From positions 1 through 64,000 of IMG/VR virus record IMGVR_UViG_3300047558_000238: a DNA stretch of 64,000 nt, one strand, 5' to 3'. Below are positions 4,015-64,000 of this stretch, in pieces. Source of the DNA: a virus. A program made the translations under genes and the position numbers. Each line of letters opens with the position of its first letter. Position 1 is the stretch's first letter. The notes under the pieces are model-generated. The model was given only the letters and a program-made list of their open reading frames with translations. It was not told where the DNA came from and ran no database searches.

Positions 4015-5415
4015 ATGGGCAAAAGTATTATGGAGCTGATTGCGATGCTCCCCGAAGAGGAGCGAGCGCAAGCTCTAGCCGACCTAGACCCCGAAGCATT
4101 GATGTGGGACTGGTCTGTTTGGGGACGCCCAGAGCAGCAAGCTCCTGAAGGCGACTGGAACATTTGGCTTGTACTTGCAGGACGTGGTTTCGGTAAGACT
4201 CGTCTAGCGTCCGAGTGGGTTCGCGAACAGGCTAAGTACACCAATACGGGCCAACGCCGTTTTGCACTTGTTGCTCGTACCGCAGCTGACGTACGTGACG
4301 TTATCGTTGAAGGTGAATCGGGCATTATGAATGTCACGCCACCTTCCGAGAAGCCACTCTACGAACCTTCGAAGCGTCGCCTAACTTGGCCTAACGGAAA
4401 TACAGCAACGCTATTCACCGCTGATGAGCCTGACTCGCTTCGTGGTCCTCAGTTCACTCATGCCTGGGGTGATGAGATCGCAGCTTGGCGTCAGACTCCA
4501 GATGCTGCAGGTATGACCGCGTTTGACAACTTGCGCGTTGGTACTCGTCTTGGTGATAAGCCAAAGATTCTTGTCACCACTACCCCGAAGCGTACGCCAC
4601 TGCTCTACAAGCTCATTGAAGAGGCAAATACTGGCCGCGTTGTGATTACCCGTGGTTCTACGATGGATAACGCAGGTAACTTGTCTGGCGCATATATGGA
4701 CACCATGCTTGGTGTTTACGAGGGAACCTCTCTTGCCCGCCAGGAGCTTTATGGTGAAATGCTTGAAGCCATGGAAGGCGCAATGTGGACAGAGGAGATG
4801 ATTGAAGCTGGCCGTGAAGCCATCTACCCACTCAGCACGCCTCTGCGCATCATTGGTGTTGACCCTAGCGTTGCAGAAAACCCTCGTGATGAGTGTGGAA
4901 TCGTAGTTGTATCGGCTACAGCAGAGTCTGACCTGTATAAGCGTCATGCTTGGGTGCTTGAAGACGCTTCAGTACTCGGTTCACCGACAGTTTGGGCTCA
5001 AAGAGTAGTTGATATGGCCCGTAAGTGGGGTTGCCCAGTTGTTGCTGAGGTAAACCAGGGTGGTGCGATGGTTAGAAACGCAATTAATACCATCGACCCA
5101 ACAATTAAAGTGCTTGAAGTCCACTCAAAGCAAGGAAAAGCCCTCCGAGCAGAGCCAATTTCGCTTGCATACGAGCAACAGCGCGTTCACCACGTTGGAT
5201 ATCTCGCAGATCTAGAGTCTCAGATGATTTCTTGGGTTCCAGGAGAGGGACGTTCACCAGACCGCATCGATGCACTAGTTCACGCACTCACTGCACTGCT
5301 CATTAAGCCACCAGCTGGCTTCTCTGGCGGAAAATTACGTGCAAAAAGCTTCGCTGACCGTAAAATTGGCATCCCAAACGGTAATCGTGGCGGAAAAATC
5401 TTCAGAATCAGGTAA
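4015..5415 (+). CDS. terL: Terminase large subunit
   Basis: The 466-residue packaging motor has an N-terminal ATPase and a C-terminal RNase H-like nuclease. Walker A is LAGRGFGKT (residues 54-62); Walker B with the catalytic glutamate is HAWGDE (149-154). ITRGSTMDN and LVTTTPK fit the coupling motif region. The nuclease begins at IIGVDPS with D283, and DRIDALVHAL near 425 supplies late acidic residues. It starts four bases after heme oxygenase and two bases before the next gene, so it is in one transcript. The small subunit is not obvious; tandem-HTH proteins are candidates. Confidence 0.93.
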   Translation: MGKSIMELIAMLPEEERAQALADLDPEALMWDWSVWGRPEQQAPEGDWNIWLVLAGRGFGKTRLASEWVREQAKYTNTGQRRFALVARTAADVRDVIVEGESGIMNVTPPSEKPLYEPSKRRLTWPNGNTATLFTADEPDSLRGPQFTHAWGDEIAAWRQTPDAAGMTAFDNLRVGTRLGDKPKILVTTTPKRTPLLYKLIEEANTGRVVITRGSTMDNAGNLSGAYMDTMLGVYEGTSLARQELYGEMLEAMEGAMWTEEMIEAGREAIYPLSTPLRIIGVDPSVAENPRDECGIVVVSATAESDLYKRHAWVLEDASVLGSPTVWAQRVVDMARKWGCPVVAEVNQGGAMVRNAINTIDPTIKVLEVHSKQGKALRAEPISLAYEQQRVHHVGYLADLESQMISWVPGEGRSPDRIDALVHALTALLIKPPAGFSGGKLRAKSFADRKIGIPNGNRGGKIFRIR

Positions 5416-53923: not shown

Positions 53924-54284
53924 TGTCTATAAACTTTCCGTCTATATATCTAGATCCTATTTTAGCAGTAGCTGTAGTATCATCAACTAGAACAAATGTT
54001 GGCTGTGCCAAAAATATATCTGCTAGAGAGTCCTGGGCTCTTAGGATATCATAAACTTCACCATCTAGAACCATTGCAATGGTATGTACCGATGGTCCGC
54101 TTAGGTTCTTCTTCTGTTCCAGTGAGTACTGACTCTCTGTGCCGCTGCCATGGCTGTGTTGATGTTCCTTCGAAAAAGTATTTTTTAGCTTCTGCAGGAA
54201 TGATACTTGACTGGCTAATCCAGCCTGCTTTGGGGTAGGTATCTTATGTCTTGGCTTCATTAGTCGTACTTTTTTCTGTGCCAC
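53907..54284 (-). CDS. Virion-like protein, paralog of the 54954 gene
   Basis: 125 residues: a basic N-terminal half with KEHQHSHGSGTE, then a conserved unit HTIAMVLDGEVYDILRAQDS, LADIFLAQPTFVLVDD and a final YIDGKFIDNEP. That unit matches the 77-residue protein at 54954-55187 (FALIINNVVYQRMRTDAQLA, SVFSGQPTFIQVDV, YDPVTGTF). Likely small beta-containing adaptors of the fibre module. Role unknown. Confidence 0.55.
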   Translation of the reverse strand: MAQKKVRLMKPRHKIPTPKQAGLASQVSFLQKLKNTFSKEHQHSHGSGTESQYSLEQKKNLSGPSVHTIAMVLDGEVYDILRAQDSLADIFLAQPTFVLVDDTTATAKIGSRYIDGKFIDNEPTT

Positions 54285-54949
54285 ATGGTGCGCTTATAGT
54301 TAAAGTCTTTTGTTCGTGCTAGATAAGCAAAGTAGCCTAAGTTTCTAAGGGCCTTGCTGCTAGCTGAGCGTATCTGCATTTTCCAGTCGTAGCGCTTGAT
54401 AGGGATCAACTGGGCTATAGGAGTTCCTTTAGGGATAACCCCTTCAAAATCTTCTTTTATGAAAAACGGAATGTTGCCAGCGTTAAAAAATACATCTGAA
54501 TCGATGATACCAGAGGTCACGTGGAAAGGTAGATCTTCTCTATTTAGTGGATGGGTCAGTAACACACTGAATCCACGGGGAGCCTTAAAATTCCAGAAAC
54601 CTGTAAATGCGAGATGGTTTGGCGCGAATCCTGGCAGTCTAGGCATTGTCTCGCCTAGTGCTGCTGGACGTTCGTTAATTATTTGACCAAGAGGGTTTTC
54701 CGGGTATGAAAAAAATATGTTTCCATCTTTTTTAGAGACTTCAATATCAAAAGGAATAGTTAACACATATCCGGTAATCATCGCATCTAAAAAAGGCATA
54801 CACTGTTTAAGTCCAGCTGATTTTTCACCTGTAGCGGTTAAAAAATGGCTTTCTGCAGACTTATACCACCCGGGTAGCGCTCTTTTAGTAGGTACTGGTC
54901 TTCCGTATTCAACTAAGTCTTTAGCGATAAAAAACTTTAGAAGTTTCAT
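54260..54949 (-). CDS. Conserved phage protein of unknown function
   Basis: Starting at ATG 54949 (MKLLKFFIAKDLVEYGRPVP) gives 229 residues; an in-frame ATG at 55021 would lie inside the preceding gene and looks too early. Features such as RALPGWYKSAE, LKQCMPFLDAMITGYVLTIP, FKAPRGFSVLLTHPLNREDL and GTPIAQLIPIKRYDWKMQIR resemble a hypothetical protein family I associate with T4-like cyanophages and pelagiphages. Function unknown. Overlaps the next gene by 25 bases. Confidence 0.6.
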   Translation of the reverse strand: MKLLKFFIAKDLVEYGRPVPTKRALPGWYKSAESHFLTATGEKSAGLKQCMPFLDAMITGYVLTIPFDIEVSKKDGNIFFSYPENPLGQIINERPAALGETMPRLPGFAPNHLAFTGFWNFKAPRGFSVLLTHPLNREDLPFHVTSGIIDSDVFFNAGNIPFFIKEDFEGVIPKGTPIAQLIPIKRYDWKMQIRSASSKALRNLGYFAYLARTKDFNYKRTMWHRKKYD

Positions 54950-54953
54950 AAAC

Positions 54954-55187
54954 CTATGGCTTGCTGAAAGTTCCAGTAACTGGGTCGTAAATGTCGCCAG
55001 CCTCCACTGGGTCGTTAACATCTACCTGAATAAATGTTGGCTGGCCACTAAAGACCGAAGCAAGTTGAGCATCTGTTCGCATTCTTTGGTAGACAACATT
55101 ATTGATAATTAGTGCAAAACCATATTCGTTTGCGCTCTGCTGAGGCTGGCCTGGCGATTCTAGAGGCGGAATGCTTGGTAAAGTCAT
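54954..55187 (-). CDS. Small virion-like protein
   Basis: 77 residues: a Pro-rich start (LPSIPPLESPGQPQQ) and the unit FALIINNVVYQRMRTDAQLA then SGQPTFIQVDV, shared with the protein at 53907-54284. Lies one base from the lectin-like gene upstream. Structural accessory by context; unknown function. Confidence 0.55.
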   Translation of the reverse strand: MTLPSIPPLESPGQPQQSANEYGFALIINNVVYQRMRTDAQLASVFSGQPTFIQVDVNDPVEAGDIYDPVTGTFSKP

Positions 55188-55188
55188 T

Positions 55189-56028
55189 TTAGTTCCTATC
55201 TATTGATATCTTATTAATTGTACTACCCTGGCCGTATGAGCTAGGGCTGATTGCTAATCCAAATCGTTTTGTTTTTGTTGGATTGTCTGCTGCATAAGTT
55301 AGGTCAGAGCCAATTTGGCTAGAAAAATTGTAGTCAGAGTAAGCTTGAATCGTAATAACATTATTTGAAGTTTTTACTCTAAATGCCGAGATTAACGTAG
55401 ATACAGCCTGAGACCACATGACGGATATCGAACCGGATACTGACTTAAGTATTCTCAGATACTGGGGGTAGCAGGTGCTACATGAAGTTCCAGAGCAGGT
55501 GCTACATGAAGTTCCAGAGCAGGTTTGACAAGTAGTTGTTGTGCCCCCGCCGGTATAGTAGATGCAATAGAAGCCAGTCCAAAATCCGCAGGTAGGTGCA
55601 GTATAGGAGTCAACACAGTTGCAACTATATGAGTAGTTGTAGCAGTTGCAACTATATGAGTAGTTGTAGCAGTTGCAACTTTCTGCTTGACTATATTTTT
55701 GTACCCCCCACCAACTATTGGATTCAGTCACCCAGAGGGAGACCATGGCCCCTTGATCTGGAGCGGCTAGTTCTACAGATACATTTTCTACGCCCATGTC
55801 TGTAGTCATCATTGGATATGTTCCAGCACCAGTAACTGTAGTCAGCTTATTGCTTACAATGCTAAATGTTCCTGCTGCTATATCCCATTTGCTGCCATCA
55901 GTAGCAACTCCAGGACTGTTTGTTATGTCAGCTCTAGTGAAAGTATCAACAAACTTTTTTCTTACAGCTTGAGCTTTGATGCCTATTGACGGTCTCACTA
56001 TGCCACCGTATCCCCAAACAATACCCAC
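55189..56028 (-). CDS. Lectin-like tail protein with a Cys-rich repeat insert
   Basis: The 279-residue protein looks like a LamG/concanavalin-type jelly roll ([38 protein letters not shown], later [20 protein letters not shown]) interrupted at about residues 115-190 by an insert unlike anything else here: CNCYNYSYS twice and CSGTSCST twice, with some 17 cysteines. The insert is encoded by 27-bp and 24-bp tandem repeats. Clustered cysteines could form disulfides or bind metal. It sits in the adhesin module and is probably surface-exposed. Overlaps the preceding collagen-like gene by 31 bases. Confidence 0.65.
55471..55518. repeat. 24-bp tandem repeat, two copies
   Basis: Two identical 24-base units (beginning GCAGGTGCTACATGAAG) plus a short partial third encode CSGTSCST on the minus strand. 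Perfect identity suggests recent duplication. Confidence 0.9.
55616..55680. repeat. 27-bp tandem repeat, 2.4 copies
   Basis: Two identical 27-base units beginning CAGTTGCAACTATATGAG, and an 11-base partial third, encode the CNCYNYSYS repeats of the lectin-like protein on the minus strand. Confidence 0.9.
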
Positions 56029-56714
56029 AAGTCAGTGCCGCGCTTGTAAAGCGTAGCGGATGACCACTGAGCACGCAGTTTATTTCCAGGAGTATAGTTT
56101 AGGGTTACACCAGCACCCGGTGACACGGTAACTTGACCTGCTCCAGTTTGCATAATTGATATCGTTGATCCAACTGCTATAGCAGCTGAAGAATTAGGCG
56201 GAACTGTGACAGTTATTGCAGCCGAGTTGTTTAACTCGATAAAGTAGGCAACATCGCCTGCAACTAAAGTATATGAAGTTCCAGTTTGGTTGTTTACTGG
56301 ATAAGTAAGTGAGGCTTTAGAGTTCAACTGTGTCTGTATCGGTGAGGTTACACCGCTAGCGTAGTTTAGCTCAGTGGTGGTTACAGTTGCGCCATCTAGA
56401 ATGTTAAGTTCTGCTGCTGTTGCCGTAACTCCCTCTACACCGGGGCCTGTCGGTCCAATCGGTCCTTGAATTCCGTCTGCTCCTGCTGGTCCAGTTGGTC
56501 CCATTGGGCCAGCTGCTCCATCTGCACCTGGTAGCCCATCGGCACCAGGTAGCCCGTCAGCACCCGTGGCACCAGTGGGTCCAGTTGGTCCGGTAGGGCC
56601 AACCACCATAGCTGTATTTGATGCCTTCCAGAAGGTGCCATTCCATGTCCAAGACTGGTCACCTAAAACATACGTCTGCCCTACAGTAGGGGTGTTAGGG
56701 AAATTGATTGGCAT
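55998..56714 (-). CDS. Short collagen-like tail fibre protein
   Basis: 238 residues: an N-terminal attachment motif ([27 protein letters not shown]), a collagen-like Gly-X-Y run at about 39-92 ([20 protein letters not shown]), then a [14 protein letters not shown]-type trimerising repeat and a C-terminal beta domain ([34 protein letters not shown]). Collagen-like runs form trimers in phage fibres. Prolines precede Thr or Ala in Y, so a prolyl hydroxylase would have many possible targets. Confidence 0.75.
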
Positions 56715-56715
56715 A

Positions 56716-57045
56716 TTACACTAGACCTCTCGATAAAGCATCAATCTCTAGGTCGGTTAGCCCAGCGATATCTTTTAATTTCTGTCTAGCAGTAATAGGG
56801 GCTGATATTTTCTCTAACTCTTCTGTAGTTAGATCACGTAAAGTCCATACTTGACGCCATACCCCATCAATTTCCTGTGGAAAGAGCTCCTGAAGAACTT
56901 TACCATCTATCAATGCAGGTGGATCAGTTGGTTTTACTAATGTCCACCCTGTAGGTAGACCAAACTCTGGTTCCCAGTCGGGGTTGGCAACTTTGATATC
57001 ACCAATGTGTCGTGGATACTCATTATTAGGGCTGATGTATAGCAT
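56716..57045 (-). CDS. Tail fibre accessory or chaperone-like protein
   Basis: 109 residues: [20 protein letters not shown], then [20 protein letters not shown] and a helical C-terminus. The phrase [16 protein letters not shown] resembles small fibre-associated proteins of T4-like environmental phages. It overlaps the beta-propeller gene by one base and precedes the collagen-like gene by one base, a position used by fibre chaperones. Confidence 0.5.
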
Positions 57046-58283
57046 TATCCTACTTCCGTACCTATATAGTTTACCGCTGCGCTAACCGACTGGTTGGTCA
57101 CAGAATATGACGATGCAACTGAAGAAAATCCTGGGTTTGCATAGCTAAATCCAGCGGTATTGTAATTAAATGATGGGGTAGTCACTTGTAGTGATGACGT
57201 GGCGTAGCTAAATCCTGAGTATGCTCCTAGCCCGGAGCCGTCGCCTTTTAATTTTGTAACGGCCGCTGTTCCCATTATTGCCACGGTACTATCTGGAGCA
57301 ACGTGCATTCTGAGCCAGCCCATGATAACGTTGAGCTTTCTAATGAACTGAATTGTTCCGCTACTGTTGAATTTAGCAAATCCGCCACCATAGTTTGGGT
57401 AGTCGGTATTGTTGTTGTCCTGATAAAAGCTTATATATACGTTTCCAGCACTATCTACTCCAGGAGTAGCATAGTCATTATAGCTATATACACCTGGAAT
57501 CTCTAGCTGCCTTGCCCACTGCATGGTGCCTGAGCTGTTGTACTTAACAATAAATGAGTGCCTTGTAGAGCCAGACATCCCGGAGACGTACACATTCCCG
57601 GAGGTATCTACAGTGCAGCCCATCCCCCACATTGTCTGTCCATCGGTTGGAGTTATGGTTCTTTGCCACTGAACTACGCCGTTACCTCCAGCATACGCTG
57701 TAACGTGAACTCCGGCTCCACCGCTATATGTTCCTGCTGCTACAGCAATCCCTGCGGATGCACTATAACCTATACCGTTATAGTAGCTACTTGGTGTAGT
57801 TAGGTACTGCGACCAAACCATATTTCCACTACTGTCTAGGCAAGATACGACAGGGTAGTCTGATCCACCAGTATTGTATTGTCCGCAGATGTATGTGGTT
57901 CCAATAGTGTTAGTTACGCTAGCTTGAGCAGAGCTTACAGTGGCATTTGTTGCTAGCTGCCTCTGCCACTGAATTACTCCATCAGAGTTATACTTAGCTG
58001 CAAAAAATGATCCAGAACCGGCAATATATACATTTTCTGAGCTATCTAGACTCAACCCTTGAGTATTGCTCGGGTTAATTCTTCTACCCCAGACAACTTC
58101 ACCATTTTTATTTAGCTTTATGGTTGTGCTGTATGTTTGGTAGTAGACATTTCCTAGTGCTCCAGTAGTTGCTACACCATACCCAGAGCCAGTTCCCTGG
58201 ACCACCCAGTAAAGTCCGAGTATGCGTTTTAGTCTGCCCCATGCGGCAGCTCCGCTATTCCCTAGAGTCTGTAGTAGTGGCAT
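57045..58283 (-). CDS. Beta-propeller-type tail protein
   Basis: The 412-residue sequence holds repeated blades of the form ITKYNSDGVIQWQRQL: IKLNKNGEVVWGRRI, AAKYNSDGVIQWQRQL, SCLDSSGNMVWSQYL, VKYNSSGTMQWARQL and FAKFNSSGTIQFIRKL, alternated with DSSENVYIAGSG-type strands (SBBP/PQQ-like). Five or six blades suggest a closed propeller, suited to receptor binding. The C-terminal 70 residues (GSGLGAYSGFSYATSSLQVT) are Ser/Tyr-rich and probably an attachment tail. Confidence 0.7.
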   Translation of the reverse strand: MPLLQTLGNSGAAAWGRLKRILGLYWVVQGTGSGYGVATTGALGNVYYQTYSTTIKLNKNGEVVWGRRINPSNTQGLSLDSSENVYIAGSGSFFAAKYNSDGVIQWQRQLATNATVSSAQASVTNTIGTTYICGQYNTGGSDYPVVSCLDSSGNMVWSQYLTTPSSYYNGIGYSASAGIAVAAGTYSGGAGVHVTAYAGGNGVVQWQRTITPTDGQTMWGMGCTVDTSGNVYVSGMSGSTRHSFIVKYNSSGTMQWARQLEIPGVYSYNDYATPGVDSAGNVYISFYQDNNNTDYPNYGGGFAKFNSSGTIQFIRKLNVIMGWLRMHVAPDSTVAIMGTAAVTKLKGDGSGLGAYSGFSYATSSLQVTTPSFNYNTAGFSYANPGFSSVASSYSVTNQSVSAAVNYIGTEVG

Positions 58284-61200: not shown

Positions 61201-62623
61201 GACCAGTTACACCCTGAATTCCTTGGAATCCAGCCACGCCCTGAGGCCCCTGAGGGCCAGTAGGTCCAGTTGGTCCCTGTAAGTTTCCATTAGCTTCCCA
61301 GGCTAGGTTGTCCTGAGACCAGATGTAGATTGTACCGTTTACAACGTGCACGTCTCCGACGTTACCAATTGGGTGATCAGTGACAAGCTCTTGGTACGTA
61401 GCATAGGAGTCTAGAATAGTTAGGCTTTGACCCATTGGCCCTGTTGCACCAGTTGGTCCAGTTATACCTTGTACACCTGCGGCACCAGTTGCACCTGTAG
61501 GGCCTGTAGGGCCTTGAATACCCTGTAAACCAGTAAGACCCTGAGCTCCCTGGGCACCAGTTGCACCAGTTGCACCAGTTGCACCAGTAGCTCCAGTTGC
61601 ACCGGTTGGTCCAGCTGGACCCTGCGTACCTTGAGCACCAGTTGGGCCAGTAACACCTGCTGGTCCTTGAAGACCGCTTGCTCCAGTAGGGCCAGTTGGC
61701 CCTACGGAACCAGTTGCACCAGTGGCACCAGTTGCACCCTGAGTTCCAGTAAGACCCTGAGGGCCAGTTGCACCGGTAGCTCCAGTAGCACCTGTTGGCC
61801 CCTGGATACCCTGTGTACCAGTAGGGCCTGTTGCTCCGATGGGACCCGTTGCTCCAGTAGGGCCTTGAATGCCCTGTGCACCCTGAGCTCCAGTCGGTCC
61901 GGTTGCTCCAGTAAGACCTGCTGAACCAGTAGCACCTGTTGCACCAGTTGGTCCAGTAGCTCCAGCAGACCCTGCAATACCCTGAGGACCAGTAGCTCCA
62001 GTCGGACCAGTCGACCCGGTTAGTCCTTGAATACCTTGAGGACCAGTTGCACCTGTTGCTCCTGTTGCACCAGTTGGACCAGTTACACCCTGAATTCCTT
62101 GCTCGCCCTGAGGACCAGTAGCACCAGTTGCACCCTGAGTTCCAGTAAGACCCTGAGGGCCTGTAGCACCAGTAGGACCCTGAGGGCCAGTAGAACCAGT
62201 AGCTCCGGTTGGCCCTGCTTGCCCTTGAATACCTTGAATACCCTGCGCACCAGTAGGACCAGTTGCCCCTTGAGCTCCTGTTGCGCCAGTAGCTCCAGTA
62301 GCGCCCGTTGCACCAGTTGCACCAGCTGCACCAGTTGCACCTGGTGTTCCTTGAATACCAGTTAGACCCTGTGGTCCAGTTGGGCCCTGGATACCTTGAG
62401 GACCAGTTGCGCCAGTAGGGCCTGGAATAGTACTAGCTGCACCAGTAGCACCAGTTGCACCAGTTGCACCAGTTGCACCAGTTGCACCAGTAGGACCAGT
62501 AGATCCTGGAGCGCCTGTAGGGCCAGTTGGCCCTCCCGCAGGGCCAGCAGGGCCAGTAGGTCCAGCAGGGCCTTGAGCCCCTACGCCCTTAACTTCTAGA
62601 TACGCAAAGTCATCTGAAAACAT
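58292..62623 (-). CDS. Giant collagen-like tail fibre protein
   Basis: At 1443 residues this is the largest single-frame gene here. Gly-X-Y runs (mostly GPT, GAT, GPQ) fill about 17-395, 451-577, 628-738, 957-975, 1153-1195 and 1236-1285. Two interruptions (about 396-450 and 578-627) carry the motif [13 protein letters not shown] / [10 protein letters not shown], also at the start of the distal tail protein. Non-collagen beta domains lie at 739-956, 976-1152 and the C-terminal 1292-1443. A trimeric triple-helical fibre over 200 nm long is possible. Two oxygenases of prolyl-hydroxylase type are encoded just upstream in the same direction. Confidence 0.85.
62441..62491. repeat. 9-bp tandem repeats inside the collagen-like gene
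   Basis: ACCAGTTGC-type 9-base units are repeated about five times perfectly, coding for Gly-Ala-Thr pairs on the minus strand. Similar but less regular repeats extend through 58.7-62.6 kb. Length variation by slippage is likely. Confidence 0.85.
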
Positions 62624-62982
62624 TAGTAAGTAATCTCCGCTCTAACGGTAAACTTTCCAGCAATAAATTTAGTAACGTCTCCGTCAGGGCTTTCAAGTTC
62701 TATATCATATGTGTAGATGCCAGCTGCTAGTGCCTCAGTTTGAGCTGGAGTAAGTAGAACTTCAACTTTTCCGGTGAGCGGCTCTATCACTAGACTTCTA
62801 GTTCCAGTAACTAGTGAGAGCGCAATCTCGGAGCTATTGGCTGAAGTTCTTATCTGCATTCGACCGGAGTACCCAGTCAAGTTGATAGGAGTCTTAGTAG
62901 ATGTCTTAAGAATTAAGACGCGATTCAGTGTAGCACCTTGATCGGCTATTATATCATAGTAATTGTTCGTTGCGCAATACAC
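62623..62982 (-). CDS. BppU-like or fibre N-terminal baseplate protein
   Basis: 119 residues with the order [80 protein letters not shown]: the Ig-like domain seen in phage baseplate upper proteins and fibre-joining proteins. Start is GTG with AGAGGA upstream. Its stop shares a base with the collagen-like gene, so the two are coupled; it probably anchors that fibre. Confidence 0.65.
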
Positions 62983-63038: not shown

Positions 63039-63638
63039 CTAGTTGCTTAGCCTTTTAATCCAGAAAGCTGGCGACATGTATTTAACTCCTGAGACTACCG
63101 GAGTCGACCTGTGATAGTAGGGCTCTACAGATGGGAAGACCACAATACTTCCAGCTTCTGGCTTTATTTTTATATCGAACTCAGTGAAATGTAGCTCGCC
63201 GCCGTCCATATCGTCATTTAGGTAGATAACAGCTGACATTATTGGCTCTAAATGCGGCTCCCCGTGGTAGTCAACGTGAGGGCCCATCTCTGCTCCGCTA
63301 ATGTATTTAGAGATACTTATAGGCGCTGGGTCGATATAGTCTATGCCATTCTTTTTGGCATAATCTCTTCCCGCCTCGGTTAAAGCGGTTTTTAGATTTA
63401 GATATATTGACTTGACGCTATCAGAGCTGGTGCTTAGTTTAGATTCATCAGTAAATTTTTGCTGACCAAATACGTAAGGCTCTCCATCGCCAGAAGCCAA
63501 CCATTGATGCCATTTTTGTATAGCATCGTTGGTAGTCAGATTAGCATCTGTTGTCTCGATGAGCTCTATGATCTTTTCTGGGCTCTCTACAATACCCTTG
63601 TAGTAGTAAATTTTGTCAGCAAAAATCTCGGGGTTCAT
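63039..63638 (-). CDS. 2OG-Fe(II) dioxygenase, prolyl 4-hydroxylase-like
   Basis: Using ATG 63638 (its A is the last base of the upstream TAA) the protein has 199 residues. Iron ligands are visible: H121 and D123 in MGPHVDYHG, and H176 in PYYHRSTPV; the later basic residue in GVKYMSPAFW is where 2-oxoglutarate binds. YLNDDMDGGELHF is typical of the P4H-type double-stranded beta helix. P4H enzymes hydroxylate prolines, the classic substrate being collagen, and collagen-like fibre genes lie directly downstream. Substrate is inferred from that context. Confidence 0.8.
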   Translation of the reverse strand: MNPEIFADKIYYYKGIVESPEKIIELIETTDANLTTNDAIQKWHQWLASGDGEPYVFGQQKFTDESKLSTSSDSVKSIYLNLKTALTEAGRDYAKKNGIDYIDPAPISISKYISGAEMGPHVDYHGEPHLEPIMSAVIYLNDDMDGGELHFTEFDIKIKPEAGSIVVFPSVEPYYHRSTPVVSGVKYMSPAFWIKRLSN

Positions 63639-64000
63639 TAGGCGAACTTGTTGCCCTTCTCCCACTCTATTTTCTGCTCGGCCTGTGCCTTACGTACCTC
63701 TTGGATTTCGGCTTCCCAAGCTGCCTTTTTCTCATCAGAGTACACGGCATCGGCAAAGTCCCAGAAGGAGACCATGGTATATCTAGTTCCCTTTAGAATC
63801 TCTTTAACTCCGTGAATGTTTTCTATTCCGCCAGGGAAGCAGATGTACGAGTAGGCAGCTGGCTTAAACTCTAGGTTGTGGTCAGGAAAATAAAGCTCTC
63901 CACCCTCGTAATCGTCATTTAAGTACAAGATACCTACATACTTATTAATCTCAAAAGCGTTTGGCGAGCCGTCGAAGTCCGAGTTATCTGAGTGTGGCGC
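63638..64000 (-). CDS. Second 2OG-Fe(II) dioxygenase, partial at window edge
   Basis: The frame is open to the last base of the window and so is truncated at its N-terminus. It begins inside APHSDNSDFDGSPNAFEI, giving the H-x-D iron ligands (HSD), continues YVGILYLNDDYEGGELYFPD, and has the distal histidine in NIHGVKEILKGTRYTMVSFW. The C-terminus is a charged helix (EIQEVRKAQAEQKIEWEKGN). It is a paralog of the next gene, to which it is coupled by TAATG. Same inferred role. Confidence 0.75.
   Translation of the reverse strand, partial: APHSDNSDFDGSPNAFEINKYVGILYLNDDYEGGELYFPDHNLEFKPAAYSYICFPGGIENIHGVKEILKGTRYTMVSFWDFADAVYSDEKKAAWEAEIQEVRKAQAEQKIEWEKGNKFA

Follow-up and report, generated by a model that had tools for sequence, protein, structure and literature searches.

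What is a dense run of cysteines doing in the middle of a phage jelly-roll protein? The question is raised by a 279-aa protein encoded in the first 64,000 nucleotides (hereafter the window) of the 107,309-base virus record IMGVR_UViG_3300047558_000238. An initial annotation had described a cysteine-rich tandem-repeat insert in a lectin-like protein, and had proposed disulfide linkage, metal binding or variation in repeat number as its possible significance. The insert is real, and AlphaFold2 modelling and structure comparison give a jelly roll for its carrier (Table 1). It lies where it was annotated (55500-55690), although the cysteine stretch is slightly wider (55471-55677), and it contains 14 cysteines rather than about 17 (residues 118, 120, 127, 129, 136, 138, 147, 155, 167, 170, 175, 178, 183 and 186). 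With a background cysteine frequency of 0.67%, taken from the window's stop-to-stop frames over 300 aa, such a density (14 in 69 residues) has a binomial P of ~4e-17.

The DNA repeats within the insert are indeed perfect (2.4 copies of 27 bp and 2.3 copies of 24 bp, each at 100%). What had been missed is that these two arrays appear to encode two facing arms of one structure: three times a CNC stands opposite CSTC or CQTC, and YNYSYS, of six residues, opposite SGTS, of four.

Table 1. Coordinates in the window of the jelly-roll gene, its parts and its neighbours in the fibre cluster.
Feature	Position	Strand	Remarks and basis
phrog_7084 protein of unknown function, downstream of the jelly-roll gene	54260..55021	-	PHROG match
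Jelly-roll protein gene with cysteine-ladder insert (putative)	55189..56028	-	279 aa, GTG start
Jelly roll, C-terminal half, residues 189-279	55192..55464	-	Alignments, AlphaFold2
Insert, residues 112-188, at the family's fixed insertion point	55465..55695	-	Comparison of relatives
Perfect 24-bp tandem repeat, C-arm unit CSGTSCST	55470..55524	-	Repeat analysis
C-arm, Cys 167, 170, 175, 178, 183, 186, in mirror order facing the N-arm	55471..55530	-	AlphaFold2 strand 169-186
Predicted hairpin tip, residues 139-166, inner pair Cys147/Cys155	55531..55614	-	AlphaFold2, low confidence at 140-164
N-arm, Cys 118, 120, 127, 129, 136, 138	55615..55677	-	Cysteine positions; AlphaFold2 strand 116-135
Perfect 27-bp tandem repeat, N-arm unit CNCYNYSYS	55616..55680	-	Repeat analysis
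Jelly roll, N-terminal half, residues 22-111, ending in the conserved WVTxxNxWWGV strand	55696..55965	-	Alignments, AlphaFold2
Collagen-like protein with C-terminal domain of phrog_8780 (minor tail protein), directly upstream of the jelly-roll gene	55998..56714	-	PHROG/Pfam search, relatives
SBBP beta-propeller protein	57045-58283	-	Domain search
Collagen-like protein, 1443 aa	58292-62623	-	Domain search
Protein matching the L-shaped tail fibre assembly family	62623-62982	-	Domain search

Genomic context of the jelly-roll gene

The gene is part of a fibre gene cluster on the minus strand (54-63 kb), which includes two collagen-like proteins and a beta-propeller protein. Its immediate surroundings recur elsewhere: the phrog_8780 C-terminal domain also terminates the upstream gene in relatives of different lineages, and the phrog_7084 gene adjoins the jelly-roll gene in the closest relative too. 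A gene of ~230 aa similar to the phrog_7084 protein follows the cysteine-rich gene in many relatives, and the two proteins may therefore work together. The start region of the 279-aa protein is likewise shared by relatives, for example L163 ('MGTIRRYGGVMRPH...').

The larger collagen-like protein consists largely of Gly-X-Y triplets (mostly GPT/GAT) with small domains in between. The collagen-like fibre genes are adjoined by a gene resembling 2OG-Fe(II) oxygenases (63039-63665; PF13640, E 1e-12), and prolyl hydroxylation of the fibres by its product is a possibility. Beyond the window, the record also carries a glutaredoxin-like gene (77256-77432, plus strand; PF00462, E 1e-14), which it would be speculative to tie to the thiol chemistry of the insert; no thioredoxin was found in the record. 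The nearest primase/helicase to the record's own is that of DSL-LC01, a lake phage of an actinomycete, and the host is therefore likely a freshwater actinobacterium. Gene neighbourhood and fold similarity are the two grounds on which we speak of a tail protein and of host contact, and the 279-aa protein is presumably located in the virion.

A jelly-roll scaffold

The AlphaFold2 model of the protein, made with 26 sequences as input, is a jelly roll with a mean pLDDT of 84 and a core above 90. According to VIA-align, its best matches among solved folds are the C-terminal domain of the central fibre of mycobacteriophage Douge (gp20, Z 17.4), CBM66 (Z 16.9) and the receptor-binding domain of TM4 gp23 (Z 16.7), while the viral predicted structures that match come from uncultured Caudovirales (uncharacterised proteins) and from actinophages (minor tail proteins). 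The modelled protein has the two-sheet jelly-roll fold of the concanavalin-A/CBM66-like phage receptor-binding domains. Binding to cells of M. smegmatis and to the glycans of their cell wall is described for recombinant Douge CFP-tip-CTD, in a paper whose main text makes no mention of a disulfide (PMC13033339).

At the sequence level, the window protein has no match in Pfam, nor in PHROG at E<=1. The 26 family members have no Pfam match either, two of them giving a marginal match to phrog_16673 (E 0.0075) as the only PHROG hit, and there is no sequence match between the family and PDB chains. The tail carbohydrate-binding jelly rolls of actinophages (Douge gp20 CTD, baseplate CBMs, TM4 gp23 RBD) and CBM66 are thus alike to our protein in predicted fold (Z 16-17), and the former are likewise set among tail-fibre genes. 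However, their identity to the window family is ~10%, and the cysteine-rich insert is a feature of the latter. It is by predicted fold only that we group the scaffold with the phage tail carbohydrate-binding jelly rolls.

The insert across uncultured phages

Relatives were found first through a short pattern around WWGV in viral contigs, which gave nine related phage loci; further members came from profile scans of viral contigs with the N-terminal half of the protein, the profile of the C-terminal flank being too divergent for use in scanning. This yielded 149 distinct inserts from uncultured phages, all located at one site right after the conserved W-W strand and followed by the conserved second half of the domain. 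The insert is present and in frame in relatives, so that this refuting condition of the initial annotation does not apply, and the idea that it is young does not hold for the insert as a whole, the same site being occupied in all 149 sequences.

What fills this site is strikingly different from one lineage to another. Inserts range from 66 to 453 aa, with up to 64 cysteines, and their sequences are unrelated between lineages, being made of repeats of CYQT, GCTGY, NPGNC, NYGTC and others. Cysteines are present in 145 of the 149 (82 clusters at 60% insert identity, 65 at 45%), and the four inserts that have none are rich in Tyr and Thr. Among the first 58 members, inserts contain 8.3% Cys, 11.9% Tyr and 0.6% His, whereas the scaffold is almost free of cysteine. 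The insert is also less conserved than its flanks in 545 of the 577 pairs whose scaffold identity exceeds 45%.

Several members deserve mention in their own right. One branch of the family (L098, L099, L115, L131 and L148) has Tyr/Thr-repeat inserts (YTSGATTYTSSAP) at the same site, with no or hardly any cysteine. The largest cysteine count is that of L280, 64 in a 453-residue insert, which is even and has a spacing that is not obviously a simple ladder. In two contigs of separate sample origin, L182 and L187, the gene goes out of frame at the tip that separates the arms (4435-4560, with the ORF end at 4489) and the C-arm goes on in another frame, the arms apparently having 10 + 10 cysteines over both frames; this may represent an assembly error, a real break or a frameshift. 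Finally, a different protein of the same fibre cluster (L174:1662-2453) has a PASTA-like start and a cysteine-rich C-terminal part with 14 cysteines, an even number; other scaffolds may carry this kind of insert.

Five family proteins, one of them also with its insert removed, gave no convincing relatives by tblastn in isolate phage records, the two marginal matches both lying outside the jelly roll. A search of the genomes of 84,980 bacterial and archaeal species gave no member. The peptide-spacing pattern CxCYxYxYxCxC gave 67 matches over viral contigs, none of which is a cysteine-rich open domain like the one described here. No account of such an arm was found in the papers searched on cysteine-rich, hypervariable or disulfide-ladder phage tail proteins.

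Cysteine number

None of the 149 distinct inserts has an odd number of cysteines, in counts that leave out the cysteines found after the insert (a single one in a few members, six in one). The even-count rule was set down after 58 sequences and then applied to 91 new ones, where it held in 28 of 28 and subsequently in 63 of 63. Thirteen clusters (60% identity) vary internally in cysteine count, always to another even number. By comparison, 48 unrelated ORFs from the same loci with at least four cysteines split into 30 with an even and 18 with an odd count. Repeat units that contain two cysteines are ruled out as the source of the parity by several lineages with one cysteine per unit (L139, L145, L164).

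Spacing of the cysteines

Even parity extends to the whole family, whereas a ladder-like arrangement concerns part of it. Mirror-symmetric cysteine spacing (p<0.05 against shuffled gaps) was observed in 36 of 81 insert clusters, with a Fisher combined p of ~5e-37 that shows strength rather than an exact probability, the clusters being related by descent and not independent draws. When the two halves were compared in the same order, 7 of 81 clusters reached this level (combined p 0.14), a control that partly covers the tendency of CxC and CxxC to sit at both bases, which gap shuffling ignores. The window insert alone gives a mirror p of 0.02, against 0.94 in the same-order control. The symmetry is visible in the gap lists of inserts such as L085, whose gaps are 2,4,5,5,5,7,5,5 / 11 / 5,5,7,5,5,5,7,3, or L145 (46 cysteines), with mirrored blocks of 10s, then 7,4,7,4,7,4, then 8,8. 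An inverted repeat in the DNA was ruled out as the cause of the mirror, the N-arm scoring within shuffles against the reverse complement of the C-arm.

Facing positions also follow a rule of complementarity. CxC lies opposite CxxC 54 times (13 expected), whereas CxxC opposite CxxC occurs once (5.0 expected), and in nine clusters CxC and CxxC face each other in both orientations within one ladder. In 45 of the 81 clusters the mirror test is not individually significant; some lineages, among them L229 and L236, combine even parity with another spacing, and therefore would pair otherwise than by a ladder.

Paired changes between relatives

Close relatives allow the two arms to be compared as they diverge. 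Facing (mirrored) segments co-vary, with a mean rank correlation rho of 0.59 versus -0.27 in the same-order control. Between L164 and L165, whose scaffolds are 98% alike, the arms have exchanged two units at mirrored positions (SPSYPC on one side, YYYAC on the other), and L171 has gained one cysteine per arm at matching places. A simple gradient of change from base to tip would also make facing segments co-vary; against it stand pairs with conserved tips (L164/L165, L189/L190), which are few in number.

Repeat number varies between relatives, as had been suggested. L197 is built from the same unit as the window insert, with six CxC facing six CxxC where the window has three facing three, and has the same repeat periods of 27 and 24 bp in degenerate form. 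From the perfect copies of the window it therefore seems that each arm has recently gained one unit, and in this respect the earlier idea of a young insert stands, for the last duplicated units.

A predicted disulfide ladder and its alternatives

A two-stranded antiparallel arm with nested disulfides is the simplest structure to account for all four regularities, namely even counts, mirrored spacing, CxC opposite CxxC, and paired changes. Two strands would exit the jelly roll side by side and antiparallel, stapled by disulfides that nest as Ci-C(2n+1-i), with every CxC pairing with a CxxC of the opposite strand. The rungs predicted for the window are 118-186, 120-183, 127-178, 129-175, 136-170 and 138-167, with 147-155 at the tip. 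Independently of these patterns, the AlphaFold2 model extends two jelly-roll strands (116-135 and 169-186) into a hairpin whose tip, at 140-164, is of low confidence, and thereby the jelly roll and the window's hairpin strands are supported by prediction. The hairpin strands of the longer L197 (6+6 arms) are not resolved, its arm having a pLDDT of ~35.

The thiols would be oxidised, presumably once the protein has left the reducing cytoplasm. Tandem duplication and substitution would be the source of variation: units may be duplicated or lost in both strands and substitutions paired, so that every cysteine stays paired; the jelly roll is conserved. The arm would most likely show to the host surface, from the tail fibre, a stiff, protease-resistant and fast-changing tip, which presumably touches the host. 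We consider it likely that a tail adhesin carries the insert as a disulfide-ladder hairpin, whose variation involves no retroelement and probably serves host contact. Of the roles first proposed for the cysteines, disulfide linkage is the one that parity and spacing favour.

The alternative that survives best keeps the disulfides and changes the function: the arm might be structural, stiffening or cross-linking the fibre or protecting it from proteases without receptor contact, or the bonds might form between subunits. Even parity and a place among collagen-like fibre genes are silent on the role of the tip, and the non-mirrored lineages (L229, L236) point to other bond patterns. However, an insert that diverges fast while its scaffold, with a phage receptor-binding fold, stays conserved suits host contact better, and mirror spacing within one chain suits intramolecular pairing, and we regard this alternative as unlikely, while giving it some weight.

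Metal binding, through metallothionein- or zinc-type sites, is suggested by the motifs CxC and CxxC, which are typical metal ligands. Yet such sites need no even count in every member, histidine is scarce in the inserts, and CxC opposite CxxC is the pattern of facing strands in a hairpin ladder. Moreover, among the 82 cysteine-bearing clusters the count is a multiple of four in 44 and is not in 38, a split that would be expected from pairing and that disfavours Cys4 sites only. The metal-binding role suggested in the initial annotation thus becomes very improbable.

Slippage of low-complexity DNA in a tolerated loop, with cysteines incidental, could account for the perfect repeats of the window and for the tandem arrays present in 35 of 86 inserts versus 2 of 86 flanks. 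A neutral process would not hold every insert to an even count, the lineages with single-cysteine units included, nor keep the spacing mirrored across the arms; this explanation is already contradicted, and we give it hardly any credence. Least plausible of all is a variable region written by a diversity-generating retroelement (DGR), for which a hypervariable site in a phage adhesin would be the usual target, since the 107-kb record, which may be incomplete, has no reverse transcriptase (PF00078 search, with positive controls), the inserts vary in how many repeats they have and by changes of whole blocks, and the domain folds as a jelly roll, not as a C-type lectin.

If the disulfide-ladder hairpin is correct, the disulfide connectivity of a whole protein family would be legible from sequence, through parity, mirror spacing and co-variation. 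Phages would have evolved an expandable, covalently stapled loop, probably for host recognition and new among the natural scaffolds of hypervariable binding, and many uncharacterised cysteine-rich proteins of viral metagenomes would find an explanation. It would then have to be asked how as many as 64 cysteines find their correct partners for particles built in a reducing cytoplasm.

Comparison with known systems

Regular disulfide rungs on beta structure are known from cystine-ladder peptides such as theta-defensins, granulins and the Tenebrio antifreeze protein, which are small proteins of fixed form in which the number of rungs is constant. In the phage arm, by contrast, the number of rungs changes (from 2 to 32 predicted disulfides) and the strands co-evolve. 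DGR targets, for example Mtd of Bordetella phage, offer a hypervariable receptor-binding surface on a conserved scaffold; the phage insert differs from these in having no reverse transcriptase in the record, another fold, and variation in length and repeat number.

We regard the ultralong CDR H3 of cow antibodies as the nearest parallel in action, and not as a relative. It is made of a stalk and a disulfide-bonded knob, and even numbers of cysteines are favoured, although odd cases occur (PMC7366855). It is a long disulfide-containing arm that ends in a knob, stands on a beta scaffold that is conserved, is rich in Gly, Tyr, Ser and Cys, and is diversified by changing cysteines; the phage insert would work in a similar way. 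However, fold and origin are unrelated, parity is a tendency in the cow whereas it has no exception in the 149 phage inserts, the predicted ladder runs along both strands of the phage arm, and its diversity comes from phage evolution rather than from somatic mutation. On balance, we incline to the wider view that uncultured phages possess a large family of tail adhesins in which the hypervariable part is an expandable disulfide-ladder hairpin with up to 32 predicted disulfides. Its two strands would follow pairing rules that resemble those of the bases in an RNA stem, with CxC set against CxxC and swaps that compensate each other, and this retroelement-free hypervariability would be convergent with the ultralong CDR H3 of cows.
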